In this document: piece after piece, positions 6,109 to 63,456 of the stretch
Layout of the letters: each line of letters starts with the position of its first letter
How positions within the stretch are numbered: the stretch's first letter is position 1
Made by a program: the position numbers and the translations under genes
From: Iocasia fonsfrigidae
GTDB lineage: Bacteria > Bacillota > Halanaerobiia > Halanaerobiales > DTU029
Direction: 5' to 3'
Length of the DNA: 64,000 nt
Assembly (NCBI RefSeq): GCF_017751145.1
Contig: NZ_CP046640.1
Coordinates: 1,530,137 to 1,594,136, forward strand
Notes under the pieces: model-generated
Told to the model about the DNA's origin: nothing
Databases searched by the model: none
The model's input: only the letters and a program-made list of their open reading frames with translations

Positions 6109-6212
6109 GTTCAACATGGGATTTAAGATTCCGCTACGTTTCATCCAAATTCATTCGGTAAAGGTGGTCGCCCTAAACCTCATGAACTTCTTAAATCCCT
6201 GGTACGTTAGGC
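6109..6212 (+). repeat. attC site (104 bp)
   Basis: R'' core GTTCAAC (6109-6115), R' core GTTAGGC (6206-6212). Inner arms GGGATTTAAG and CTTAAATCCC pair perfectly. The tip contains GGTCGCC. The outer cores do not match each other, so its left part belongs to a different cassette than usual (the IS91-type remnant). Confidence 0.85.
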
Positions 6213-6248
6213 AAAAGACCATGAATATAATACAGGAGTGTGAAAGAT

Positions 6249-7061
6249 ATGAGTGAGGGTTCTATAATTTCTGAAACAAAGGAACCAATTACAATAAATA
6301 GTTTATACCAAGATTTAATAAAACTTGGGGTTAATCGTGGTGATATCTTATTAGTTCATTCATCCTTATCAAGTTTAGGATGGGTATGCGGTGGTGCACA
6401 ATCTGTTATAACTGCAATAATGAATGTCTTAGGAAAAGAAGGGACATTAGTTATGCCAGCTCATAGCGGAGATTGGAGTGATCCAGAAGAATGGAAAAAT
6501 CCTCCTGTTCCCAAAGAATGGATAGATATAATATATGAAAATATGCCAGCATTTGAACCTGATAAAACACCAACAAGAGGAATGGGATGTATTGCAGAAT
6601 TATTTAGAACATTTCCTAATACATTAAGGTCAGATCATCCACAAGTATCATTTTCTGCTAATGGTAAGTATGCAAAAGAAATTGTTGAGGAACATTTTTT
6701 AACACCACAGTTAGGTATGAAATCACCTCTAGGAAAGATATATGAATTAGGAGCAAAAGTTCTATTGTTGGGAGTGGGATATGATTCGTGCACTAGTTTT
6801 CATCTTTCAGAATCATATATAGAAGAAATGCCCATGAAACGCGTAGGCACTGCAATGTTAGATAAGGGCAAAAAAGTTTGGAGATGGTTTGATGACTATG
6901 ATTATAATTCAGATGATTTTGAACTAATTGGGCAAAATTTTGAAGAAAATATTATAGTACATAAAGGTAAAGTTGGTAATGCAAACTGTAAGTTATTTGA
7001 TATAAAAGATGGGGTGGATTATGCAAAATCATGGTTAAGAAAATATAGATTTTCTAAATAG
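6249..7061 (+). CDS. AAC(3)-type aminoglycoside N-acetyltransferase-like protein
   Basis: This protein of about 270 residues belongs to the AAC(3)/YokD antibiotic N-acetyltransferase family, which acetylates the 3-amino group of aminoglycosides in characterised members. Family signatures present are LLVHSSLSSLGWVCGG near residue 30, GTLVMPAHS, PDKTPTRGMGCIAE and the RSDHPQVSFSANG loop, with the SPLGKIYELGAKVLLLGVGYDSCTS region after it. Full length for the family. ATG 6249 is preferred over GTG 6240 because AGGAG at 6234 is correctly spaced. It is the single gene of a relic cassette (GTTAGGC 6206 to GCCTAAC 7111). Whether it confers resistance is unknown. Confidence 0.85.
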   Translation: MSEGSIISETKEPITINSLYQDLIKLGVNRGDILLVHSSLSSLGWVCGGAQSVITAIMNVLGKEGTLVMPAHSGDWSDPEEWKNPPVPKEWIDIIYENMPAFEPDKTPTRGMGCIAELFRTFPNTLRSDHPQVSFSANGKYAKEIVEEHFLTPQLGMKSPLGKIYELGAKVLLLGVGYDSCTSFHLSESYIEEMPMKRVGTAMLDKGKKVWRWFDDYDYNSDDFELIGQNFEENIIVHKGKVGNANCKLFDIKDGVDYAKSWLRKYRFSK

Positions 7062-12989: not shown

Positions 12990-14078
12990 ATGTTTATAAA
13001 ATTATTTTGCGGTGGTGATGGTAATTTTTTAATTGTTAAATTTAATTACTCATCTTTAATTGTAGAGAAGTTGAAAAAAATAAACGACAGTAGATATATA
13101 AAAAGCAAAAATTACTGGCAAATACCTGGTGATAGAAAAGTACTAAAAAAATTGTTTTTCTTATTTAAAAATGAAGAAGTTAAATTAGATGAATCATTAC
13201 TAAGGTTTAAAAATTGTAATATGATCATTAATAAAAAATACAATGATTTATTAAAGGAATATACAAAAGTTATAAAATTATCAGGTTATAGTACACATAC
13301 TTATAAGAATTATCTATGTCATTTAAAAAGATTTATTCTATATAGCGAAGGTAAGCTTATTTCTATTAGGCAGAGGGATATCGAAAGTTATTTGTTATAT
13401 TTACTTGAAATTAGGAATTGTTCCCATTCTTATGTTAATCAAGCTATTAGTGCTATAAAGCTGTTTTATAAAAAGGTATTAAACGAAAATCAAATAGATA
13501 TTAATTTGACCAGACCTAAAAAAAAGAAAAGACTCCCTAAGGTACTCAGTCTAAATGAAATAAAAAAGGTTATTCAAATAACTCATAATTTAAAACATAA
13601 AACAATATTGGTATTTATTTATTCTTCAGGTTTAAGGGTAAGTGAAGTAGTTAAAATTAAGATGAATCATATTGATATTGAAAGGAAAATGTTAAGAGTC
13701 CCTCAAAGTAAAGGTAAAAAAGATAGATATACAATTTTATCTGATACGGCTCTTTTGTATCTTCGAGCATATAGATCAAAATATAAAATTTATGAATGGT
13801 TATTTCCAGGACGGGGAGAAAAACATTTAAGCGTAAGGTCTGTTCAAAAAATCTTTAAAAAAGCAGTTAGTAAAGCAAATATAAAAAAAGATGTATCTGT
13901 TCATTCATTACGCCACTCATTTGCAACACATCTTTTAGAAAACGGTACTGATATCAGGTATATCCAAGAGTTTTTAGGTCATAAAAGTACTAAAACTACA
14001 GAAATATATACCCATGTAAGTAAAGCACAATATAAAAAGATTAAAAGCCCATTAGACCAACTACTAAAAAATCAGTGA
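12990..14078 (+). CDS. Tyrosine recombinase, probable cassette integrase (IntI/XerA-like, no I-domain)
   Basis: This 362-residue protein has three parts. Residues 1-70 are an extra N-terminal domain with KNYWQIPGDRKVLKKLFFLF, resembling HARP-like modules. Residues about 82-165 are a SAM-like core-binding domain. Residues about 185-350 are the catalytic domain with all expected residues: Arg216 (SSGLR), Lys in SKGKKDR (240-246), His305 and Arg308 (HSLRH), His331 (LGHKST) and Tyr340 (EIYTHV). The C-terminus SPLDQL resembles XerC/D and IntI ends. The insertion between patches II and III that defines classical IntI is absent. It is followed by a strong promoter, an attI-like site and about 28 cassettes, so it is the likely integrase. 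It is transcribed towards the array, as in Treponema integrons. Confidence 0.8.
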   Translation: MFIKLFCGGDGNFLIVKFNYSSLIVEKLKKINDSRYIKSKNYWQIPGDRKVLKKLFFLFKNEEVKLDESLLRFKNCNMIINKKYNDLLKEYTKVIKLSGYSTHTYKNYLCHLKRFILYSEGKLISIRQRDIESYLLYLLEIRNCSHSYVNQAISAIKLFYKKVLNENQIDINLTRPKKKKRLPKVLSLNEIKKVIQITHNLKHKTILVFIYSSGLRVSEVVKIKMNHIDIERKMLRVPQSKGKKDRYTILSDTALLYLRAYRSKYKIYEWLFPGRGEKHLSVRSVQKIFKKAVSKANIKKDVSVHSLRHSFATHLLENGTDIRYIQEFLGHKSTKTTEIYTHVSKAQYKKIKSPLDQLLKNQ

Positions 14079-14117: not shown

Positions 14118-14147
14118 TTGACAAATATATAAAAGTTGTAATACAAT
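14118..14147 (+). promoter_or_regulatory. Predicted cassette promoter Pc
   Basis: TTGACA (14118-14123), an 18-bp spacer and TACAAT (14142-14147) point into the array, 136 bp before the attI core. It is the best promoter match in the area and is placed like Pc in integrons. It could drive the first several + strand cassettes. Confidence 0.7.
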
Positions 14148-14201
14148 TTATATAAATTAGTAAAATATTGCAATAAGACACTTCAGCCAAAGGATATCTT
14201 C

Positions 14202-14289
14202 ACGAAATACGTAAAGATAAATCTTTACGAAATTCGTTATATATCTAAATTTTGTATTTATACGAAATACGTAAAGATAGTAGTTATGT
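14202..14289 (+). other. attI: Candidate attI site with integrase-binding repeats
   Basis: ACGAAATACGTAAAGATA occurs at 14202-14219 and again at 14262-14279, directly before the core GTTATGT (14283-14289). Between them, ATCTTTACGAAATTCGT (14221-14237) is a near-perfect inverted copy. Direct repeats of integrase sites next to a single core are the layout of attI in known integrons. The first cassette starts at TTATGT (14284) and ends in ACATAAC, consistent with insertion here. Function is inferred. Confidence 0.65.
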
Positions 14290-14327
14290 GAAATCGTAAG
14301 TATAATATTTATATTGGAGGTTTATTT

Positions 14328-14975
14328 ATGAATTTATGGAATTCTAAGTTAAGTTGGGCTATTTTAATAATAGCAATTTTAGGAGATTTTATAGTTGCTT
14401 ATGTATTGTCGTTCTATTATCCTAAATATAGCCATACTAAACAAGTTATGAGTGTTTTGGGTAATCCTCAAAGTCCTGTTTCAATAATTTATAATATTTG
14501 GTTAGTAATTTTAGGATTATTATTTATTTATTCTGCTATAAATTTTTATATTGTTTTTTCTTCAGTGTCTAAAAGTTATGCAATGATAGGATTTATTTTA
14601 CTATTGATTTTTGCAATAGGTGCTGGTATTTTATCTGGTATATTTAGTGTAAATGTAAGTAAAGAATTAGAAACTCTTGCTTCTAAAGTTCATGGAATTG
14701 GGTCAGGATTAGGATTTATAGCTTTGACATTTATTCCGTTAATAGTATGTTTTCTTTTGTATAAGAGTAATGATAATACAACTGCAATAATATCACTTAT
14801 TTTTTTCTTAATTAGTCTTGTTTTATTTGTTTTATTTGTAGTTTCAGAAAAAGAATCGTATCAAAATACTATAGTGGGTTTAAGTGGACTTTGGCAACGA
14901 TTATTACTGGCAAGTATGTATATGCCATTATTAATCATTGCTATTAAGTATATTATGAAAGATAGTGTTAAATAA
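14328..14975 (+). CDS. DUF998-type six-helix membrane protein, copy 1
   Basis: This 215-residue, very hydrophobic protein has about six predicted transmembrane helices (residues about 9-30, 52-74, 83-105, 125-147, 152-172, 185-207). The DUF998 signature is YYPKYSHTKQVMSVLGNPQS followed by PVSIIYNIW. The function of the family is not firmly known. ATG 14328 follows TTGGAGG. It is the first cassette after attI, so it is the best expressed if Pc works. It differs from copies 2 and 3 at about three positions (Asn versus Ser after VLG, Val versus Ala, Ser versus Ala). Confidence 0.85.
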   Translation: MNLWNSKLSWAILIIAILGDFIVAYVLSFYYPKYSHTKQVMSVLGNPQSPVSIIYNIWLVILGLLFIYSAINFYIVFSSVSKSYAMIGFILLLIFAIGAGILSGIFSVNVSKELETLASKVHGIGSGLGFIALTFIPLIVCFLLYKSNDNTTAIISLIFFLISLVLFVLFVVSEKESYQNTIVGLSGLWQRLLLASMYMPLLIIAIKYIMKDSVK

Positions 14976-14994
14976 CAAGATAATGAGTGACTTC

Positions 14995-15099
14995 ACATAA
15001 CAAAATATTGCCGGTTCCGCTGTCGCTGCACCCAAATTCATGAATTCAAGCCAAGTCTGGCTAGAACTCATGAACTTCGGCAATACGGAGACGTTAGAT
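14995..15099 (+). repeat. attC site (105 bp)
   Basis: Cores ACATAAC (14995-15001) and GTTAGAT (15093-15099). Inner arms TATTGCCG and CGGCAATA pair, and AGCCAAGTCTGGCT forms the tip hairpin. The R'' core is the reverse complement of the attI core GTTATGT. Confidence 0.9.
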
Positions 15100-16178: not shown

Positions 16179-16286
16179 ATCTAACAGCAAGGTTTACGGC
16201 TCCACTATCGTTTCGCCCAAATTCCAGTGCCTAACATAAGAGCTATATAAGGCACTGAAACTTCGTAAACCTGCGGGACGTTATGT
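16179..16286 (+). repeat. attC site (108 bp)
   Basis: Cores ATCTAAC (16179-16185) and GTTATGT (16280-16286). Inner arms AAGGTTTACG and CGTAAACCT pair. The central stem is CCAGTGCCT and AGGCACTG. The left core matches the cassette start GTTAGAT. Confidence 0.9.
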
Positions 16287-20373: not shown

Positions 20374-22106
20374 GTACGACTGAGCAATGGTATATAGTTT
20401 AGTAGGTGGAAATCCTACCTGATAAGATTAAGCCAAATCATCAGTAGCGAGTCTTGGAGTCAATAAAGTGATTTATTGATTTAAGTGTAGACAGTTAGGT
20501 AATAGGCCTGAAAGTGATTGAGCCTCGAAATCGTACAGTTGGGAAAGGCTGACAGTTTCAGATATCTGGAAAGCAACATTTTATGAGACATTAATGGCTA
20601 GTTTCTTAAAACCTCCCCGGGGTCTAAGAGCCAGGCATGTTATACAATGACTATATGATAACTCAGGAGACCCTGCAATTCTTCTGAAAAGAAGTATAGC
20701 AAACAACTGATAAAAAGGAAGAATGCTGAAGGTTGCAGGGAGTCGGACAGTTTTCATAGTATTGATGAAGCCGGGTAATGCCGGTGGAGAAAAGGAAAAC
20801 TGCACGAAATCGTATTTGTTAAGGACACATTAACCACACACAGGGGTGGATAAATAATGTCAACAAAATTAGCAAAGATAGCAATAAAAGCAAAACAAAA
20901 TCCAAAGACAGTATTCACTTCACTGTATCACTTACTGAATGAGGAATTACTGCTGTTATGTCATCAAGAATTGGAAGCTGGTAAGGCAACAGGTGTAGAT
21001 GAAGTAACTAAAGCAGAATATGAGGAGAACTTAAAAGAGAATATAAGTGCTCTTGTGGAAAAATTAAAAACACACTCATATAGACCCCAGCCAGTAAGAA
21101 GGATATATATACCCAAAGGTAAAGGAAAAGGAAAAGTAAGACCTCTAGGGATACCAGCATATGAAGACAAGCTAGTGCAGCTGGGATTAAAGAAGATACT
21201 GGAGCCGATATATGAAGCCATATTTCTGGACATATCATATGGATTTCGACCAGGACTAAGTTGTCATGACGCCTTAAAGAAGCTAAACATAGTAATAGAA
21301 AAGCAGAAAATCAGCTATGTGGTAGATGCAGATATAAAGGGATTCTTTGACAATGTAAATCATGAATGGTTAATGAAATTTATAGGAGTAAATATAGCAG
21401 ATCCGAATATAAAAAGGCTGATAGTAAGGTTTCTCAAAGCTGGAATAATAGAAGATGGGGAACTCACAGCAACTGAGCAGGGAACACCTCAGGGAGCAAT
21501 AATATCTCCATTACTGGCAAATATATATCTTCATTATGTACTAGACCTATGGTTTATGGGGATAATTGGCAAACATTATCGTATCAACGGTGAAGCTGAG
21601 ATAGTGCGATACGCTGACGATTATGTATGCTGCTTTCAATACAAAAGAGCAGCAGAGATATTCTTTCATGTACTAAAGAAAAGACTAGCAAAATTCGGTT
21701 TAGCACTGGCAGAAGATAAATCCAAGATAGTAGAATTCACAAGATGGATAAAGCTAAGGAGGAATATGTTGACGACCAACGAAATAGTAGATAAGGTTAA
21801 ATCCAAGTTGAGGGGACATTATCAATATTATGGAATAACAGATAATAGTAAGTCTATAGATAATTTTAGACAGGCAATTATCAGAATACTATTTAAATGG
21901 TTGAATAGAAGAAGTCAGAGGAAAAGCTTTATATGGGAGAAATTTAAGAAATATATAATTGATAAACACATACCAAAAGCAAGAATATGTGTAAATATAT
22001 ATGGATAGTTTTGATTTTATGTGAGATGGAGTGAGGAGCCGGATGCCCGAATTGGGCCCGTCCGGATCTGTGAGGGTTCGGCATCGTGAGGTGCCTTCTA
22101 CTCGAC
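20374..22106 (+). mobile_element. Group II intron, lineage A, copy 1 (deleted IEP)
   Basis: 5' end GTACGAC, 3' end CTACTCGAC, domain V around 22036-22070 (GAGCCGGATGCCCG and its complement). Length 1733 bp, 168 bp shorter than copy 2. Joining the exons gives GTTATCCG|AAAT, the normal cassette-start consensus, which fixes the borders. The ribozyme part looks complete. The short IEP without an endonuclease domain and insertion next to a hairpin fit group IIC. It separates the attC core from the TIR gene body. Confidence 0.85.
20857..22008 (+). CDS. ltrA: Group II intron reverse transcriptase/maturase, internally deleted
   Basis: The 383-residue IEP is in frame but 56 residues shorter than copies 2 and 3. 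It keeps RT blocks including VVDADIKGFFDNVNHEW, GTPQGAIISPLLANIYL and the catalytic RYADD. A 162-bp in-frame deletion between similar sequences (AAGATARTAGAATT) removes the block with DFLGFTHY after the palm, plus one GGAAAA unit elsewhere. Thumb/maturase function is therefore probably lost. ATG 20857 follows GGGGTGG. Confidence 0.85.
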   Translation: MSTKLAKIAIKAKQNPKTVFTSLYHLLNEELLLLCHQELEAGKATGVDEVTKAEYEENLKENISALVEKLKTHSYRPQPVRRIYIPKGKGKGKVRPLGIPAYEDKLVQLGLKKILEPIYEAIFLDISYGFRPGLSCHDALKKLNIVIEKQKISYVVDADIKGFFDNVNHEWLMKFIGVNIADPNIKRLIVRFLKAGIIEDGELTATEQGTPQGAIISPLLANIYLHYVLDLWFMGIIGKHYRINGEAEIVRYADDYVCCFQYKRAAEIFFHVLKKRLAKFGLALAEDKSKIVEFTRWIKLRRNMLTTNEIVDKVKSKLRGHYQYYGITDNSKSIDNFRQAIIRILFKWLNRRSQRKSFIWEKFKKYIIDKHIPKARICVNIYG

Positions 22107-22134: not shown

Positions 22135-23505
22135 ATGCAATTAGACCCTATGGGATTTTTAAGCTATACACATTTTGATGATGACCATAATAAAGGAAAG
22201 TTAACAAAGTTCGCTGAGCAACTAAGTGGAGAAGTAAGAGCACAGACTGGAGAGGAATTTATAATATTTCAGGACAGAAAAAGTCTTAATTGGGGCGATA
22301 ATTGGAAAAAACAAATTGAAGATTCATTAAATGAAGTTACATTTTTATTTCCTATAATAACTCCAAGTTATTTTAAAAGTAGTCCTTGTAGAGAGGAGTT
22401 AGAATTATTTATAAATAGAGAAAAAAGACTAAGAAAAAGAAATTTAATTTTTCCTATATATTTTATTGAAACAGAAGAACTCGAAAATAAAGGAAGAACA
22501 AATGATGAGTTAGTTAAAGTAATATCTTCAAGGCAATATGAAGACTGGAGAGCTTATAGATTTGATAATTTCAATACAAAAGAAGTAAATAAACAATTTG
22601 AAAAACTTGCAAGAAGCATTAAGATTAAATTAAAAGACATTAGTACAGCTGATGATAAAAAACTAATTTCTAAGTCATTTGAAAAGAAATCTAATAATAA
22701 TATGAAAAGCAGAAAAATGTCGAGAAATAATATTTCACCATATGATTATATTACTTTGCTTCCAGATGATTTACATATTCAGGAAACTTTGTATGCAAAT
22801 ATTAAAAGTAATGAAAATGATGATCTTTTTATTAAAGGAAGATATAAAAAAAATAATAATAATGGATTATATGTAGCTTTATTAACCTATGATATAGAGA
22901 AGAAGAAATGGAAAAAAGTTTTTGATAAAGATATAGAGCCTTTTACAGCAATTAATAGTTATACCAATAAAATGCTTGATAATAATAACGATGTTCTAAT
23001 AATTACTACTAAGGCAGGTAGTGGTGGATTTCTAAGTTATACTGTTATTGGGTATAAAGAGAATGAGTTCAAAATATTATTGCAAAGGAATAATATTTTT
23101 CAAGGACAGTTGAGAATATTAAATAATCAACTTATTGAAAAGAAAGGTAAACAAGCTATTCTTTTTGAATGGAATGGGACGTATATATTGGGAACACAAT
23201 TAATAACCGAACCTCATATTCCATATTCACTTGATGATAAAAGAATAGCATACTCAATAGACAAAGAAGAAAATGTACTTATTCAGGATACTAATGTTAC
23301 TTTATATAGAGGACAAAAATTATACCTAATTCGTGAAAATACGGGTGTAACTGAAAGAATTTTATATAGAGCTGGAGGAGCTTTAACATATGAAGAAGAG
23401 TATTTTCTGGCATGTAAAATTGGAAATACTCAAATTTCAATTATTCCTTCAGGGTATAATTGGGACAAGTCTATAAATATAGAAGTAGAAGTTATTGATA
23501 GGTAA
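22135..23505 (+). CDS. TIR-domain protein with beta-rich C-terminal domain
   Basis: In this 456-residue protein, residues 1-160 are a bacterial TIR domain: GFLSYTHFDDDHNKGKL, the BB-loop region FQDRKSLNWGDNW, and the NADase-type motif SSPCREELELF with Cys85 and the putative catalytic Glu at 87 or 88. A Lys/Ser/Asn-rich linker (about 175-205) leads to a domain rich in beta strands (about 210-456) with repeated patterns such as DVLIITTKAGSGGFLSY and QAILFEWNGTYILGTQ, which I do not recognise. Bacterial TIR effectors usually degrade NAD+ or make signal nucleotides upon phage sensing; the C-terminal part may be the sensor. ATG 22135 follows GGGAGG. Confidence 0.85.
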   Translation: MQLDPMGFLSYTHFDDDHNKGKLTKFAEQLSGEVRAQTGEEFIIFQDRKSLNWGDNWKKQIEDSLNEVTFLFPIITPSYFKSSPCREELELFINREKRLRKRNLIFPIYFIETEELENKGRTNDELVKVISSRQYEDWRAYRFDNFNTKEVNKQFEKLARSIKIKLKDISTADDKKLISKSFEKKSNNNMKSRKMSRNNISPYDYITLLPDDLHIQETLYANIKSNENDDLFIKGRYKKNNNNGLYVALLTYDIEKKKWKKVFDKDIEPFTAINSYTNKMLDNNNDVLIITTKAGSGGFLSYTVIGYKENEFKILLQRNNIFQGQLRILNNQLIEKKGKQAILFEWNGTYILGTQLITEPHIPYSLDDKRIAYSIDKEENVLIQDTNVTLYRGQKLYLIRENTGVTERILYRAGGALTYEEEYFLACKIGNTQISIIPSGYNWDKSINIEVEVIDR

Positions 23506-23519
23506 GACCTTATGACTTC

Positions 23520-23632
23520 GGATAACACAGTATTGCCAGTTACACTCCTGGCGTCGTTTCACCCAAATCCATCAACCCAAGTTAGGAGCTAACTAAGGGT
23601 TGATGGACTTCGGCAATACATAAACGTTACAC
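23520..23632 (+). repeat. attC site (113 bp)
   Basis: Cores GGATAAC (23520-23526) and GTTACAC (23626-23632). Inner arms TATTGCC and GGCAATA; middle stem CCATCAACCC and GGGTTGATGG. The left core matches the GTTATCC at 20366, across the intron. Confidence 0.9.
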
Positions 23633-23773
23633 GAAATACCTGTGTAGCTAAAAATAATTTATAATACTCATATTTAAGCTTAAATGAACATATTTATAGT
23701 AAATTGAATAATATTGTGGTATAATAAATATAGTCATAAAGATTATAGTGAACATAATAAAGAAAGGGTGACT

Positions 23774-24826
23774 ATGTTTATGATGTCGTTTAAAGATAAA
23801 AAACTTGTTAATGAGAATATACCAATGAATATTGTTAGGTTAATAGGTAAAATAAATGAATATAAAGGAAAACAAGATTTATATATAAATCAAGCACCAC
23901 AAGCATTAGAAAGATTAAAAGATGTAGCAATTATACAAAGTACGAAAGCATCAAACAGTATTGAGGGAATAGTTGTTACAGATAAGCGTCTAAGAGCTAT
24001 TATGAAAGATGATACTAGGCTTCAAGACCGTTCTGAAGGAGAAATTGCTGGTTATAGAGATGTATTAAATACAATACATACTTCTTTTGATGCTATTCCA
24101 ATTAATTCAAATATTATATTACAATTACATAGAGACCTTTATAGGTATATTTCAGCTGAAGGTGGCAAATGGAAAAATCAAGATAATATAATTGGCGAGA
24201 TTTTACCCACTGGGGAAAAATTTGTAAGATTCAGACCAGTATCTGCTTCTGATACACCTAATTATATGATGGGATTATGTGACTACTTAAATAATGAAAT
24301 GAAGGAAGAAAAAATAGAACCATTGATTTTGATAGGAACATTTATTTTAGACTTTTTATGTATTCATCCATTTAATGATGGGAATGGTAGAATTTCAAGA
24401 CTACTGACATTATTATTACTATATAAGTACAATTATATAGTTGGAAGATATATTAGTTTAGAGAAAATAATAGAGGAAAGTAAAGCTAGTTATTATGAAA
24501 CGCTTAATCAATCATCAATAGGCTGGCATAAAGGCAATCATAACCTGTTTATATGGTTAGACTACTTTTTAGGAACTTTATTAGCAGCTTATAAAGAATT
24601 TGAACAAAGAGTAGGATTAATAAAGAGTAGAAGTGGAAACAAGAGCGATAGGGTAGAACAAGCAATAAAGAGTGTATTAGGAACCTTTACAAAAGAAGAT
24701 ATAAGAAATGCATGTCCTGATGTTTCAGAATCTACAATTAATAGGGTTTTTAGCAAATTAAAAGAAGAGGGAATAATTGAAGTTCTGGGAAAAGGAAGAA
24801 ATGCAAAATGGAAAAGATTAAAGTGA
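23774..24826 (+). CDS. Fic-domain protein, copy 1 (class II, self-inhibited)
   Basis: This protein of about 350 residues has the Fic core motif HPFNDGNGR at residues 198-206, the AMP-transfer active site. The N-terminal alpha-inhibitory motif (S/T)xxxE(G/N) is present as SNSIEG (60-65), typical of class II Fic enzymes that are kept inactive by their own helix. The last 60 residues form a winged helix (ISESTINRVFSKLKEE-like). Known members transfer AMP to target proteins; the target is unknown. ATG 23774 is preferred; an upstream extension in frame lacks a binding site. A close paralogue lies at 56283. Confidence 0.88.
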   Translation: MFMMSFKDKKLVNENIPMNIVRLIGKINEYKGKQDLYINQAPQALERLKDVAIIQSTKASNSIEGIVVTDKRLRAIMKDDTRLQDRSEGEIAGYRDVLNTIHTSFDAIPINSNIILQLHRDLYRYISAEGGKWKNQDNIIGEILPTGEKFVRFRPVSASDTPNYMMGLCDYLNNEMKEEKIEPLILIGTFILDFLCIHPFNDGNGRISRLLTLLLLYKYNYIVGRYISLEKIIEESKASYYETLNQSSIGWHKGNHNLFIWLDYFLGTLLAAYKEFEQRVGLIKSRSGNKSDRVEQAIKSVLGTFTKEDIRNACPDVSESTINRVFSKLKEEGIIEVLGKGRNAKWKRLK

Positions 24827-25020: not shown

Positions 25021-27588
25021 ATGAAATTATATTTAAAAAATCTTACTAAAAACAATTCTTTTTTGAAATTACTCAAATATTCAGTAACTATCTCTACTTT
25101 CTTAATAATAGTTGATATATTAAACTTACCATCAAAATATTTGATATTTCAAAATGTAGGACCTATTATTTTTGGTGCGTCCGTTCTGATTTTAGTTATA
25201 ATAGGATTGGAATTGAAATTTTATGACACTTTTAAAATGGCTTCAATAAACATTTTGGATGTTCTTTCTTTTACTTTAATGATATCAAGTTTAATATATG
25301 GAGTTATTATTGCTTTATATAATAATTTAAGTATGTATAAAATGATTATTCTTATAAGTGTAATATGTTTTTTTATTATTATAATGATTATTAGGGCTCT
25401 TCGCTTAAAAATAAATATAGAAGAAGCAGAGAATTATCAAACTAATATTCTTGATCTGAAAGAAATTTTCACTGGAGATTTTGAAAGAAAAGAAGATGAA
25501 TCAATATTAGTAAATGAAAAAGAAGTTGATTATGATTTATTAGAAAGAGATAATATAATTAATCAGTTATATAGTGCTATTTTACGGTCTAATCCAAATG
25601 GAAAATTTGTAATTAGTTTAGAAGGCGAATGGGGTAGCGGGAAAACAACTATAATTAATAATGTCAAAAGAAAACTGGAAAAAGAAAATCGAAATATTAT
25701 AATGATAGATGAATTTGACCCATGGTCATATCATGATCAGAAAAGTCTGTTTTATAATATGTTTGATATTATTATTAGAAAATCAGGATTAAAATATAGT
25801 ACTTTAGCAACCAAAAACATTGCTGAAGAAATATCAAAAAATATCTTTGGTATCCCAAAAAATGGACGTATTTTCAGAAGTTTATTTAATTATTCAACTG
25901 ATATAAATATTCTTAAAAATAAAATAAACGATTATCTTAAATTGTGTGGAAAAAAAGTCGTTTTCTTTATTGATAATATAGATAGAGCTGAGAATGAAAA
26001 TGTTGTCTTGCTTTTTAAACTAGTTGGTAATGTATTAGACTTTGAAAGGGTGACATATATACTTTCTTTTGATAATTCCCAAATAAACAAGATTTTTAAT
26101 AATTTAAATATAGATTATCAATATTTAAAAAAAGTAATTCAAATGCAAATACGTGTACCAAAAGTAAATAAAAGTGTATTAAAGAGGGTATTTAAAAAAT
26201 GTTTAGATAATTTGCTTATTAAGTATGGTGAAAGTGAACAAAATCTCAACTATTATAATTCAATAATTGAGTGTATGAGTAGACAAAATAAAGATGTTAG
26301 AGATTTTAAGAGATTTATAAATTCTGTTGTTAGTGTAGTATTTAATGAGCCAAGTTACTTAAATAAAAGAGACTTAATGATTATCGAATACATACGTTTA
26401 TATAATTTGCCTTTATACCAACAAATATATCAAAATAGAGTATATTTTATCTCTCATGATAAAATCCAAGATGGAGAAACCTATTCCTTGTCTTTTAATA
26501 AAGAACAGTTTAATGATAACGCTAAAAATTATTTAGATGAACTTCTTTCCCATGAGAATAATTCTAGTTATATAGATATTTTGGCAGAGATTTTCCCTTA
26601 TGTAGATAGGTACAAAAAAGGACAAGCTTTAGAATATGATGGTATATATTATTCTGATGGTTTATATTCTGAAATCACAAAAAAACGAAGAATATGTAGT
26701 GCTAAATATTTTGATTTATATTTTACTAATACAATTAATCAATTTATTTTAATAGGAGAACTTGTTGAGGATTTCGTTGGAAATTTAAATAAAATAAAAA
26801 GTTATAATAATTGTTTAGAATTATTTAATGATTTCTTAGAATCAGCACATCCTTCTTATCATAAAGAAGTATTTGAGCGAATGCAATTTTATATAGAAGA
26901 TTTAAATTGTAGTGCTTGTTTTAATTTAGCTAAAATATTATTTGAAAAATTTTACGACATAGATGATACGAATGCATTTTTTGCTCTTAATGCACAATCA
27001 AGGGTTGCTGTTATAATATGGGAGTTACTTCAAAATATAACTGATAAACAATATAATGAATTTATAAACACAATAGATGGAGAATATGGAAAGATGGATG
27101 TAATATATCAGATATTGTATTGGTTTAAACATGATAGGGAAAGAAAAAATAAAAAGGGAAGAAAAGAAAAGATGAAAGAATTATACAAAAATATGGGTGA
27201 TGATATAATCAATAATTGTATAGATATATATGATGATTTATATTATAACAGAGATAATGTACGTAGTCTTTGTAAGCTTTATGAAGATGATCCTACTACA
27301 TTCAAAGCATATATTAAGAATATAATTAATGAAGATAACATATTTAGATTAATTTATGATATTATTACATTATCATATGGGCAGAAATATAAATATACAA
27401 TTAAGAAGGAGAATCTAAATCTTCTTACAAGTGAAAATGAAATTAATGAGGTACTAAAAAATGTTGAACCACGAACAAGTGACCAAAAATTTATACTTGA
27501 TGTATATAAAAATTATAAAGAAGGAAATACAAATGAATGGGGCGAAGAAGGGATAATTACTGATGAATTAGTAAATATAGAATTATAA
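25021..27588 (+). CDS. KAP-family P-loop NTPase with N-terminal membrane helices
   Basis: This 855-residue protein has an N-terminal membrane part of about four helices (residues about 20-37, 45-62, 78-100, 107-127). The KAP NTPase domain then shows Walker A GEWGSGKTT (202-210), the KAP-typical FDPWSYHD (232-239) and Walker B VVFFIDNIDR (313-322). The C-terminal 450 residues are helical and unrecognised. KAP NTPases are membrane-inserted STAND-like ATPases, several of which occur in phage-exclusion loci; a defence role here is inference from family and context. ATG 25021 follows GGAGG. Single gene of the cassette. Confidence 0.88.
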   Translation: MKLYLKNLTKNNSFLKLLKYSVTISTFLIIVDILNLPSKYLIFQNVGPIIFGASVLILVIIGLELKFYDTFKMASINILDVLSFTLMISSLIYGVIIALYNNLSMYKMIILISVICFFIIIMIIRALRLKINIEEAENYQTNILDLKEIFTGDFERKEDESILVNEKEVDYDLLERDNIINQLYSAILRSNPNGKFVISLEGEWGSGKTTIINNVKRKLEKENRNIIMIDEFDPWSYHDQKSLFYNMFDIIIRKSGLKYSTLATKNIAEEISKNIFGIPKNGRIFRSLFNYSTDINILKNKINDYLKLCGKKVVFFIDNIDRAENENVVLLFKLVGNVLDFERVTYILSFDNSQINKIFNNLNIDYQYLKKVIQMQIRVPKVNKSVLKRVFKKCLDNLLIKYGESEQNLNYYNSIIECMSRQNKDVRDFKRFINSVVSVVFNEPSYLNKRDLMIIEYIRLYNLPLYQQIYQNRVYFISHDKIQDGETYSLSFNKEQFNDNAKNYLDELLSHENNSSYIDILAEIFPYVDRYKKGQALEYDGIYYSDGLYSEITKKRRICSAKYFDLYFTNTINQFILIGELVEDFVGNLNKIKSYNNCLELFNDFLESAHPSYHKEVFERMQFYIEDLNCSACFNLAKILFEKFYDIDDTNAFFALNAQSRVAVIIWELLQNITDKQYNEFINTIDGEYGKMDVIYQILYWFKHDRERKNKKGRKEKMKELYKNMGDDIINNCIDIYDDLYYNRDNVRSLCKLYEDDPTTFKAYIKNIINEDNIFRLIYDIITLSYGQKYKYTIKKENLNLLTSENEINEVLKNVEPRTSDQKFILDVYKNYKEGNTNEWGEEGIITDELVNIEL

Positions 27589-27762: not shown

Positions 27763-29325
27763 ATGAATTCTTATATAAATGATGAAGTGTTAAAATCGTT
27801 TAACTATATTAATGATGAAGTAAAAAAAGAAAATCTTGAGGAAGAAGACATTTTTAGAGCTATTGGAGAGCTAGATAAAGAATATAAAGATGACCCTTTT
27901 TATAAGTTAAATGTAAATGGTTTTATAGCAAATATTGGTATAGATACAAAAAGTGAAAAAATATTAAACTATGCAATTAAGAGAATAAAAAGAACTATTG
28001 ATTCATTTGATGATCATCGTAAAAATAAACTAAATTATGATATTGGAAATCTAATTCTTACTAAAGGTGATATAAAATATCCAAATAAAAATATTGAAAA
28101 TTTATTGGAAGAAGATGAATTAGTTGAAGCTATGAGTATTTTTAACAAAGTTCAAAAATCATTTGATGATAGTTACTCAAGAGCTAATACTAATATAGGA
28201 AATATTTTAGATTATTATGGAAGAAACTCTGAGGCTATATTTTATTATGATAAAGTACTAGCTGTTGATCCTAACTTTGGGATGGCATTGGGTAATAAGG
28301 CAGAAGCAATCTATTATTATTATAATTTATTGCCAGAAAGAAAGAAACAAACAGAAATGTTGTTTTTATCTAGAGATTTATTTGAAAGAGCACTTGATGA
28401 TAATAGGATAGAAAATCAAGGTAATACAACAGCGGTTTCTATTTTTGAGTCTAGACTTAATCATTTAAATAATATTATTAAATGCAATAATTTAAAACGA
28501 AATAATACGAAACAAGTCAAAGATAAGTATAAAAATTTCATATTTAAGAAGAATTTATTTTTAAATTATCATTTTGGATTAAATATTTGTAAGGATTGTA
28601 GTTTTAAGGATGATATATTTCCACCATTAATATCAAATTTGAAGGAAGACAGAAAAAATGATAACCACGTATATGGTGAACGGATAGGATATTCTATAAA
28701 ATTATTTAACCAAATTATTGAGGATTTTGTATCAGTAAGATATTTATATTATATGGTTAATCATATAGAGGATAAATATAACCAAATTACAAAGTATATT
28801 TCTACATTAGATTACAATCATAATTCTATTAACTACGGTGTGTTAAAAACTGCATCTGTTAAGTTGTATAATGTCCTAGATAAGATAGCTAATTTCATCT
28901 TTGTTTATTTTAAAATAGAAAAAAATGAAGATACTTATTTTAGTTCATTAACAAAAAGTAATTTCAAAAAAATTATACAAAATACTGGGAATCGTCAATT
29001 ATTAGCTTTACATAGTCTTTCTAGAGATTTTCAAGATGGAAATATATACTCTAGTTTAAAAAATCTTAGAAATAAAATGGTTCATGAGTTTATAGATATA
29101 AAAGAGATGGATATAGAAACTGGACATGACAAAAGATACGATTCTTACCATATTTCACCATGTGAGCTTAATGATAATCTTGAGTTACTATTTTATATAA
29201 TAAAAAGTGCAATTATATACCTTAGTCTTTCTTTAGAATGGGAGAGTAAAGAAGTAATGTCTAAAGATCAAGTTGGAAATTTATCTATGTGGTCGCAAAA
29301 AGATATCTTTGGTGAAAATTATTAA
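27763..29325 (+). CDS. TPR plus HEPN (LA2681-type) protein
   Basis: In this 520-residue protein, residues about 110-215 contain TPR-like helices (SRANTNIGNILDYYGRNSEA followed by IFYYDKVLAVDPNF). The C-terminal half is a HEPN domain of the LA2681 kind, with Rx4H motif RNKMVH at residues 436-441, the RNase catalytic signature of HEPN families. HEPN RNases often kill or arrest infected cells. ATG 27763 follows AGAGGTG. It directly follows the KAP cassette, but as an independent cassette with its own cores. Confidence 0.85.
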   Translation: MNSYINDEVLKSFNYINDEVKKENLEEEDIFRAIGELDKEYKDDPFYKLNVNGFIANIGIDTKSEKILNYAIKRIKRTIDSFDDHRKNKLNYDIGNLILTKGDIKYPNKNIENLLEEDELVEAMSIFNKVQKSFDDSYSRANTNIGNILDYYGRNSEAIFYYDKVLAVDPNFGMALGNKAEAIYYYYNLLPERKKQTEMLFLSRDLFERALDDNRIENQGNTTAVSIFESRLNHLNNIIKCNNLKRNNTKQVKDKYKNFIFKKNLFLNYHFGLNICKDCSFKDDIFPPLISNLKEDRKNDNHVYGERIGYSIKLFNQIIEDFVSVRYLYYMVNHIEDKYNQITKYISTLDYNHNSINYGVLKTASVKLYNVLDKIANFIFVYFKIEKNEDTYFSSLTKSNFKKIIQNTGNRQLLALHSLSRDFQDGNIYSSLKNLRNKMVHEFIDIKEMDIETGHDKRYDSYHISPCELNDNLELLFYIIKSAIIYLSLSLEWESKEVMSKDQVGNLSMWSQKDIFGENY

Positions 29326-33092: not shown

Positions 33093-33860
33093 ATGGAGGA
33101 TATGTCATTCTTTATCCATGCTAAGATTTTTGACGACTTGTTAATTGTTGCACAAAAACAAACGAATTGTTTTATACTAAAGACAAGTGAAGGGCTCATA
33201 GTAATAGATGCTATTTGGCCGGCAAAAGAAGCTTTTGGGGCAATTGTAGATGCAATTAAAAATGTAGGGTGGAATCCTGATACAATAAAAAAACTGGTTC
33301 TAACACATGGACATGTTGACCATACAGGATGTGGGAGATGGTTTGTTGAAAAATATCATGTTAATACATATCTTTCTAAAGTAGATGACAATTTTTGGAG
33401 AGAAAACCCAACAAAACCTGATAGACCGGAAACGTGGAAAGATTATAATATTGATACTTATATTTATGATGGTGATACCATAACATTAGGTGATAAAACA
33501 ATATATGTTTATGACACGCCGGGTCATACTCCGGGAGGATTAAGTTACATATTTCCTGTTAAAGAAGATGGAGAAATACATATGGCTGCATTATGGGGAG
33601 GTACAACACCACCGTGGACAAAGGATGAAGTGAAACAATATGTCAAGTCATTAGATTACTTTATCAATGAAGCAATGTGTAAAAAAGTAGATGTGGCTTT
33701 AAGCAATCATATAGCTATGGATAACGGCTTGGAACGAATCATGTATTCAAAAGCAAGAATGGACTATATGCCCAATATTTATATTATAGGGCAGGATGGA
33801 TTTCATAATTTTTGTCAGGTATTTCGTACACTGAGTTATGAGATGCTGGAAAGATTATGA
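33093..33860 (+). CDS. MBL-fold metallohydrolase, copy 1
   Basis: This protein of about 255 residues has the metallo-beta-lactamase motif THGHVDH (His72, His74, Asp76, His77) and a later DTPGHTPGGLSY block, with IDAIWPAKEAFG in the N-terminal strand. The substrate is unknown; glyoxalase II-like and lactonase-like members share this pattern. Compared with copy 2, two bases are missing near 33075 (ACTAGAAAC versus ACTATGGAAAC), so the normal ATG 33046 is out of frame and translation must begin at ATG 33093, losing 16 residues. Confidence 0.82.
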   Translation: MEDMSFFIHAKIFDDLLIVAQKQTNCFILKTSEGLIVIDAIWPAKEAFGAIVDAIKNVGWNPDTIKKLVLTHGHVDHTGCGRWFVEKYHVNTYLSKVDDNFWRENPTKPDRPETWKDYNIDTYIYDGDTITLGDKTIYVYDTPGHTPGGLSYIFPVKEDGEIHMAALWGGTTPPWTKDEVKQYVKSLDYFINEAMCKKVDVALSNHIAMDNGLERIMYSKARMDYMPNIYIIGQDGFHNFCQVFRTLSYEMLERL

Positions 33861-34434: not shown

Positions 34435-34545
34435 AGATAACAATATATTGCCGACTCCATTCCTGGCGTCATTCGTCCAAATCCATCAGACCAAGATAGG
34501 AGCTATCTAGGTCTGATGGACTTCGGCAATACGGTTACGTTAAAT
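34435..34545 (+). repeat. attC site (111 bp)
   Basis: Cores AGATAAC (34435-34441) and GTTAAAT (34539-34545). Arms TATTGCCG and CGGCAATA; middle stem CCATCAGACC and GGTCTGATGG; tip AAGATAGGAGCTATCT. Confidence 0.9.
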
Positions 34546-34683: not shown

Positions 34684-35055
34684 TTAATAACCCTTGTGTT
34701 TAAGATTATTAACCCTATCAAAAATAGCCTGAATTTCTTTTTTGGAGAGGATAACAGGGAGTTTTTTCTGTTTTTTAACTTTGGGAATATACTTAATATC
34801 CCAGTGTTGATCAAGGGTTGACTCAAAAAAGAAGCGCAGAGCACTATATGCCTGATTAACATATCCTGTACTTAAATTTCTTACATCAATGGCATGAGCA
34901 AGAAATTCTCTGATATGATCTGAATTAAGAGAATCAGCATCAGAATCAAAGAAGTTCTCAAAATGTTCAATATGTCTGAGATAACAAACCTGGGTTCTAC
35001 TACTGAAATTTCTTAACTTCATGTCCTGAATCATTTTTTCTTTGAAAACTGTCAT
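34684..35055 (-). pseudogene. Tyrosine recombinase, N-terminal half only (IS91-associated type)
   Basis: About 123 residues from ATG (complement of 35053-35055) give MTVFKEKMIQDMKLRNFSSR, a SAM-like core-binding domain and the start of the catalytic domain (VILSKKEIQAIFDRVNNLKHKGY). No catalytic Arg, His or Tyr remains. It is the same protein type as the fragment at 4138-4263. GGAGATGTGG lies upstream. In both places its 5' flank leads into an attC through the shared GCAGTTTTGTTCAAC. Confidence 0.75.
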
Positions 35056-35171
35056 AAACCACATCTCCTTAAAATTTTTTATTCTATTTTACATAAAGAT
35101 GTGGTGAAATTAAATAGACTTATTTGAGGATTATATGTTATGCTAGGAAAAAGCCACTGTGTCAGCAGTTT

Positions 35172-40061: not shown

Positions 40062-40172
40062 AGATAACAAAATATTGCCGGTTCCATTCCTGACGTCATT
40101 TCACCCAAATTCATGAACCTAAGCCAAGTCTGGCTAAGGCTCATGAACTTCGGCAATACGGATACGTTATCT
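40062..40172 (+). repeat. attC site (111 bp), intron A3 directly after it
   Basis: Cores AGATAAC (40062-40068) and GTTATCT (40166-40172). Arms TATTGCCG and CGGCAATA; tip AGCCAAGTCTGGCT. Confidence 0.9.
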
Positions 40173-47229: not shown

Positions 47230-47333
47230 GGATAACAGAGTATTGCCGGTTCTGCTATCGCTGCACCCAAATTCATTCGGTAAGAGCGGTCGCTCTAACC
47301 TCATGAACTTCTTAAATCCCTGGTACGTTATCT
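47230..47333 (+). repeat. Hybrid attC site (104 bp), intron A4 directly after it
   Basis: Cores GGATAAC (47230-47236) and GTTATCT (47327-47333). The left arm is GTATTGCCGG while the right arm is CTTAAATCCCTGG; these belong to different attC types and do not pair. The tip AAGAGCGGTCGCTCT is intact. A chimeric site. Confidence 0.8.
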
Positions 47334-56033: not shown

Positions 56034-56141
56034 ATATAACAGCAAGGTTTACGGCTCCACTATCGTTTCGCCCAAATTCAAGTGTCTAACATAAGAGCTA
56101 TGTAAGACACTTGAACTTCTTAAACCCCTGGTACGTTACAC
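56034..56141 (+). repeat. attC site (108 bp, partly hybrid arms)
   Basis: Cores ATATAAC (56034-56040) and GTTACAC (56135-56141). The left arm AAGGTTTACGG is of the GGTTTACG type, the right arm CTTCTTAAACCCC of the other; only GGTTTA and TAAACC pair. The left core matches GTTATAT. Confidence 0.85.
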
Positions 56142-63345: not shown

Positions 63346-63456
63346 GTCTAACAAAAAGTTTGCGGTTCCACTCCTGACGTCGTTGCACCCAAATTCCTGA
63401 ACCTAAGCCAAGTCTGGCTAAGGCTCAGGAACTTCGTAAACTCGGTTACGTTAGAC
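63346..63456 (+). repeat. attC site (111 bp)
   Basis: Cores GTCTAAC (63346-63352) and GTTAGAC (63450-63456). Arms AGTTTGCGG and CGTAAACT; middle stem TTCCTGAACC and GGCTCAGGAA; tip AGCCAAGTCTGGCT. Confidence 0.9.

Follow-up and report, generated by a model that had tools for sequence, protein, structure and literature searches.

The array of folded repeats and gene cassettes in the window (the whole 64,000-nucleotide stretch of the Iocasia fonsfrigidae chromosome analysed here) is very probably a chromosomal integron-like cassette platform, run by an XerA-type integrase that lacks the I2 insertion and recombines attI with folded attC sites at G|TT. We infer from sequence that the protein encoded at 12990-14078 is the recombinase of the array and that it would act on single strands. 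In the mechanism proposed here, the integrase would recombine a conserved double-stranded attI, just 3' of its own gene, with attC sites whose bottom strands would fold into hairpins, the exchange falling at G|TT; cassettes would be excised in circular form and reinserted at attI or at another attC, and a HARP/XPB-DRD-like N-terminal domain probably helps to grip the folded site. Support for this explanation comes from the gene, the array, attI, the exact cassette boundaries, the complementarity of cassette ends to their own starts, the covariation within the hairpins, and the conserved neighbourhood. As a counter-point, I2 has been described as necessary for cassette capture, its deletion abolishing IntI1 function (PMC7790495). 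An earlier note on this DNA had proposed a Xer-like enzyme that handles attC hairpins; the protein is very probably a cassette integrase, and is Xer-like, but the single-strand part of that proposal stays conditional.

An integrase without the IntI insertion

Features of the gene are as follows.
12990..14078, + strand: cassette integrase, 362 aa, ATG start; XerA-type tyrosine recombinase without the IntI insertion
12990..13205, + strand: HARP/XPB-DRD-like N-terminal domain, residues 1-72 (profile and structure matches)
13764..13820, + strand: short segment at the position of the IntI insertion, residues 259-277 (alignments to IntI)

The open reading frame at 12990-14078 (+) is intact, with its ends exactly at these coordinates, and encodes an N-terminal stretch of ~72 residues, a SAM-like core-binding domain (87-167) and a Phage_integrase domain (185-345). 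All six catalytic residues are there, as the earlier note had read them (R216, K241, H305, R308, H331 and Y340), and the set R-K-H-R-H-Y is invariant across 16 members of the integrase family. The best NCBI family is NF040815 (XerA), whose curated cut-off of 220 is narrowly passed at 223.3 bits. The integron integrase model TIGR02249 yields 203.2 bits, below its cut-off of 265, with the match split into two stretches. Structure prediction, which the note had suggested, gives an AF2 model of the whole protein with mean pLDDT 78.9, for which the top Foldseek match is XerA (5hxy) and VchIntIA comes fifth. SOS control of the integrase finds no support: a GAACN4GTTC-like box with one mismatch (at -76) is found at the window gene only, and at 0 of 16 relatives.

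Between patches II and III, integrase residues 258 to 278 align to residues 177 to 240 of VchIntIA (2A3V), 20 residues versus 63, so the short segment and missing IntI-specific helix of the earlier note are confirmed. In an alignment of 88 recombinases the segment corresponding to query residues 251-279 measures 29 residues in this integrase, 29-34 in its family and 28-30 in the other XerA-like rows, compared with 71-72 in all 13 IntI. By these alignments the integrase lacks the ~42-residue insertion (I2 domain) that defines IntI, and it is filed here as a variant, not a member.

A canonical IntI elsewhere in the genome would speak against the earlier note's proposal. With TIGR02249, none scores above cut-off in the complete chromosome of this organism or in any of 60 relatives (0 of 61 genomes). 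The model is able to recognise IntI, because five fetched IntI score 422-489 bits with it; these five were scored separately, the scan of the relatives having no matching control within it.

The attC array

The attC sites are listed below by window coordinates. The minus strand is the bottom strand, which is the folded strand modelled, and bits are from the attC model.
6109..6212, - strand: attC, 78.5 bits; lies upstream of the platform, and an AAC(3)-like gene comes after it
14995..15099, - strand: attC, 106 bits
16179..16286, - strand: attC, 98.8 bits
16992..17096, - strand: attC, 107.5 bits
19657..19759, - strand: attC, 93.7 bits
20269..20372, - strand: attC, 91.1 bits; group II intron matches from 20409
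23520..23632, - strand: attC, 85.4 bits
24843..24958, - strand: attC, 75.9 bits
27628..27733, - strand: attC, 86.5 bits
30079..30186, - strand: attC, 104.3 bits
34435..34545, - strand: attC, 82.8 bits
35173..35285, - strand: attC, 81.9 bits
36190..36301, - strand: attC, 85.4 bits
37208..37312, - strand: attC, 96.4 bits; group II intron matches from 37349
40062..40172, - strand: attC, 105 bits; group II intron matches from 40209
47230..47333, - strand: attC, 79.6 bits; group II intron matches from 47370
56034..56141, - strand: attC, 98.1 bits
57352..57461, - strand: attC, 91.8 bits
58002..58108, - strand: attC, 101.4 bits
58814..58918, - strand: attC, 105.6 bits
59999..60108, - strand: attC, 86.2 bits
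61087..61198, - strand: attC, 94.1 bits; group II intron matches from 61271
63346..63456, - strand: attC, 103.5 bits

Each site has an R stem of 8 bp, followed by an unpaired spacer that is largely one-sided, by an L stem of ~8 bp and by a disruption. Covariation is extensive. An alignment of 13 sites has double compensatory changes at 22 of 35 pairs; a larger one of 64 sites has 92.1% of cells paired, versus 31.7-42.6% after sliding, and at 23 pairs both partners have changed (these pair counts are of sequences, not events). In the attC type common in this genome the disruption is a side hairpin, with 5 of 5 pairs doubly changed and 96.8% paired; other attC types near relatives have a single mismatch in its place. 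The bottom strand folds more stably than the top in 22 of 22 window sites (DNA parameters, approximate energies), the same polarity as in classical attC. With the attC model there are 48 matches in this genome, and 31 of 61 genomes have matches. The large cassette array behind the integrase is, judged from these features, genuine.

attI, cassette boundaries and probable cassette movement

The region between the integrase and the array contains the following features.
14118..14147, + strand: candidate Pc, TTGACA-18-TACAAT, between integrase and attI; single consensus match
14195..14288, + strand: attI, with repeated half-sites ACGAAATACGTAAAGATA and TTACGAAATTCGT and crossover at 14283; three genome copies, similar in 16 relatives
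14283..15092, + strand: first cassette (DUF998 gene); copies at 16280, 58102 and chromosome ~2455 kb

Three attI platforms occur in the genome, each with a different first cassette; the two others have a degraded integrase followed by the same attI region. A comparable region lies 3' of the integrase in 16 relatives, where by reading it consists of dyad repeats, e.g. ACGACATATGTCGT, then GTTANRYGAMAT or something near it. The candidate Pc matches consensus at 11 of 12 positions and recurs at all three platforms, in a scan that found fewer sites than shuffled sequence did on average.

The ~810-bp DUF998 cassette is present in four contexts, one directly adjoining attI at 14283, and its copies are 99.3-99.9% identical, which points to recent movement. 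Their identity starts or ends at, or a few bases from, the GTT of R' (G|TT). If cassettes circularise at G|TT, then R'' would be expected to pair with the first bases of its own cassette rather than those of the next. Among 19 cassettes of this genome the R'' match averages 6.89 of 9 to the own start versus 5.37 of 9 to the next (p 0.0013), and for 33 cassettes from seven relatives the values are 6.73 versus 5.30 (p 1.2e-4). This own-start match, together with the copy boundaries, is the strongest evidence, and suggests that cassettes move as circles by site-specific recombination. The locus thus combines an integrase adjoining attI, an attC array with R' and R'' boxes, and cassette boundary and circularisation at G|TT, and the array bears sequence scars such as attI x attC and attC x attC recombination would leave. 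A CALIN (an attC cluster without an integrase) was ruled out, because the array has an attI and an intact XerA-type integrase next to it.

It is unlikely, in our estimate, that another recombinase (a ~290-aa Xer-like gene past the end of the window, or the host Xer) moves the array while the HARP integrase is a bystander or acts on double-stranded DNA only. The array region does contain a second tyrosine recombinase, also intact, at chromosome 1595896-1596699 (-; 45% identity). A truncated copy of it lies at 34684-35064 (-), between the attC sites at 34435 and 35173, and there is a further Xer-like gene at chromosome 2079500. However, the second recombinase adjoins a Y2/IS91-type HUH transposase (PF04986, 1.5e-59), groups with a few similar short genes and not with the HARP integrase family, and has just two other short genes at E<=1e-40 among 60 relatives, though arrays are common there. 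At each of the three platforms, attI follows either the HARP integrase or what remains of it.

The proposal that the hairpins were dispersed as repeats by group II introns or by some other element, and are not recombination sites, their cassette look being coincidental, can draw on the nine or so group II introns that lie within attC sites or next to them, but we find it scarcely credible given the exact G|TT boundaries, the own-start complementarity, the attC sites that have no intron, and the one-sided location behind the integrase. A link between group IIC introns and integrons is already known (PMC7923331).

Array cargo

The group II introns within or next to attC sites are at window positions 20409, 30987, 34025, 37349, 40209, 44103, 47370, 51261 and 61271, and several of these nine copies are closely related to each other. 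Cargo genes at 6240-7061, 22135-23505, 23714-24826, 25021-27588, 27763-29325 and 33093-33860 were inspected; the cargo includes AAC(3)-family acetyltransferase, TIR, Fic (SoFic-like), KAP NTPase (PifA-like), HEPN and metallo-beta-lactamase-fold genes. By these family assignments it appears to have a defence and resistance flavour.

The integrase family and arrays in other genomes

The integrase points into the array, whose first cassette begins at 14283, an orientation that the earlier note had correctly likened to that of Treponema. The note had also suggested searching genomes for this architecture next to attC arrays. A contig search with the family alignment as query gave matches (a single-protein query gave none), and at 17 family loci, all related to each other, the attC-like sites found by a strict scan number 34 in the 155 kb downstream of the integrase and 0 in the 166 kb upstream. 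The same scan gives 2 matches in 339 kb of shuffled sequence, and none beside IS91-like or XerC/D genes. A generic attC scan finds just 3 matches in 13 canonical IntI loci; because it is nearly silent there, its silence elsewhere means little. No Y2 (HUH) transposase, the companion of IS91-type elements, was seen by reading beside 12990-14078, and the integrase falls outside the IS91-like clade in the tree.

Of 21 genomes with at least two attC model matches, 15 have an integrase match at E<=1e-40 and two (G012 and G017) have an integrase fragment on the contig of an array. For the remaining four (G004, G028, G039 and G042) no close relative of the integrase was found, so arrays there either persist without one or use another enzyme. 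In G042, contig C38 carries an array of ~20 sites at ~392-430 kb (L165-L167).

The architecture is conserved through the host's class and is also seen in Bacteroidota and in one archaeal MAG. Of the separate route that the earlier note had envisaged, a Xer-like enzyme without the insertion is upheld, and it is not a one-off. Seven Bacteroidota loci (L090, L094, L097, L099, L106, L118 and L133) have an XerA-type integrase at ~8-9 kb with attC-like hairpins of ~65-136 nt downstream. A Chryseobacterium plasmid (L164:8950-18990, NZ_CP041688.1) encodes a similar integrase, then four repeats of 176-310 bp between gene sets; the repeats are 86-100% identical, and this is perhaps a plasmid-borne relative with long attC. 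In a Peregrinibacteria MAG, a short XerA-like gene has an attC-model match (L114:6185-6346, E 8e-8) 1.6 kb upstream of it, and the layout is divergent.

The N-terminal domain

The ~70-residue HARP-like domain of the earlier note is borne out by matches that are each weak but agree in kind, and on profiles and models we call the domain HARP-like. Pfam HARP (PF07443) matches 12 of 16 family members weakly, best at 1.1e-4; in the sole case with a printed score (L085) it reaches 14.3, under the Pfam cut-off of 25. Among PDB profiles, the SMARCAL1 HARP domain 4o66 matches best (E 0.034, also weak). An AF2 model of the domain alone has mean pLDDT 82, and Foldseek with it places XPB first (5tnu, 2fwr, 6p66; E 0.036) and 4o66 lower (E 0.67). 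The N-terminal part of XPB is a damage-recognition domain related to HARP, and proteins with the HARP/XPB-DRD fold are known to bind DNA that is branched or distorted. Within the N-terminal domain of the integrase, Y20 and W43 are invariant.

The note had seen the domain as standing in place of the insertion, a reading that needs correction. An IntI from a Treponema MAG (L138:4050-5336) has a homologous N-terminal domain (hhalign probability 96%, E 4e-9) and the full IntI insertion as well (TIGR02249, 421.7 bits versus the cut-off of 265), so a swap of the HARP-like domain for I2 was dropped. The domain also aligns with a protein from an Undinarchaeales MAG and with many XerA-like proteins of Bacteroidota, all of which lack the insertion. 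Since the Treponema IntI carries both and some proteins have the domain without the insertion, the HARP-like region and I2 are separate modules, neither tied to the other. That it reads the attC hairpin is a hypothesis to which, from sequence, we would give about even chances. The side hairpin of attC as a universal mark read by HARP was also dropped, as other attC types near the same family have none.

Phylogeny

A phylogeny with IntI and Xer had been suggested in the note. In a quick tree, the IntI group together in a single clade (SH-aLRT 100) that leaves the integrase family outside. The family is therefore no trimmed-down version of the IntI sampled here; a clade uniting it with the IntI is not rejected by an AU test (p 0.55). 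I2 may have been gained in the IntI lineage after attC recombination, or may have been lost here, or the use of hairpins may have arisen twice.

A related possibility is that the gene descends from an IntI that secondarily lost both its insertion and its activity, and that the array is a relic from the era of a canonical IntI. The AU result is in keeping with secondary loss, and the degraded integrase copies at two of three platforms are in keeping with a relic. We hold this very improbable nonetheless: the IntI clade excludes the family, the catalytic residues do not vary, many relatives keep an intact reading frame, the near-identical cassette copies imply recent movement, and none of the 61 genomes has an IntI above cut-off.

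Implications

On the accepted account, tyrosine recombinases became able to use folded single-stranded attC through the I2 insertion, and the origin of I2 has been stated as a chicken-and-egg paradox: how could either of the two, I2 or attC, have been selected before the other (PMC4792948)? We lean, with some reserve, towards a second kind of integron in this Bacillota class and in Bacteroidota, in which XerA-type enzymes lacking I2 work on folded attC, many of them gripping it through a HARP-like domain. If this is true, hairpin recombination arose more than once or preceded the I2 domain, and the standard picture of integron function and origin may be incomplete. An attC platform run by an enzyme without I2 would make the question of order directly testable.

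There are practical consequences as well. IntegronFinder recognises IntI with a profile built on the domain specific to it (PMC9668308), and with IntegronFinder 2.0 only one complete Firmicutes integron was reported (PMC9024848). Searches that demand the IntI domain would miss such integrons, and their cargo, in this phylum. No published report of such a system was found in the open literature, where coverage is incomplete; searches for a HARP domain with a tyrosine recombinase, and for Halanaerobium with an integron, gave nothing relevant in open-access literature (most subscription journals and bioRxiv lying outside it).

Comparison with known systems

The closest known system is the chromosomal integron with IntI (VchIntIA, 2A3V), which shares attI beside the integrase, co-directional cassettes, attC hairpins in a large array, the G|TT boundary, R and L boxes, and the better-folding bottom strand. 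It differs in its integrase, which here is without the ~42-residue I2, has a HARP-like N-terminal domain and points into the array, and in its attC, which here have a central spacer forming a one-sided bulge and in many cases a side hairpin. In the Treponema integron the integrase is transcribed toward the array, the same as here (PMC3607928); the Treponema MAG IntI shares the HARP-like domain, but differs by its full insertion and by passing TIGR02249.

XerA-type recombinases (NF040815; 5hxy, 4a8e) have the same catalytic and core-binding domains and the same length between patches, whereas the integrase here belongs to an attI/attC platform and has the extra N-terminal domain; archaeal XerA is a chromosome-dimer resolvase (PMC8371274). 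CTX-phi and other Xer-using integration provide the precedent of a Xer-type enzyme on a folded single-stranded hairpin, as proposed here (PMC4792948, PMC7790495). In CTX-phi, however, the phage borrows the host XerCD at dif and its stem mimics double-stranded DNA, whereas the Iocasia system has a dedicated gene, an attI and a cassette array.
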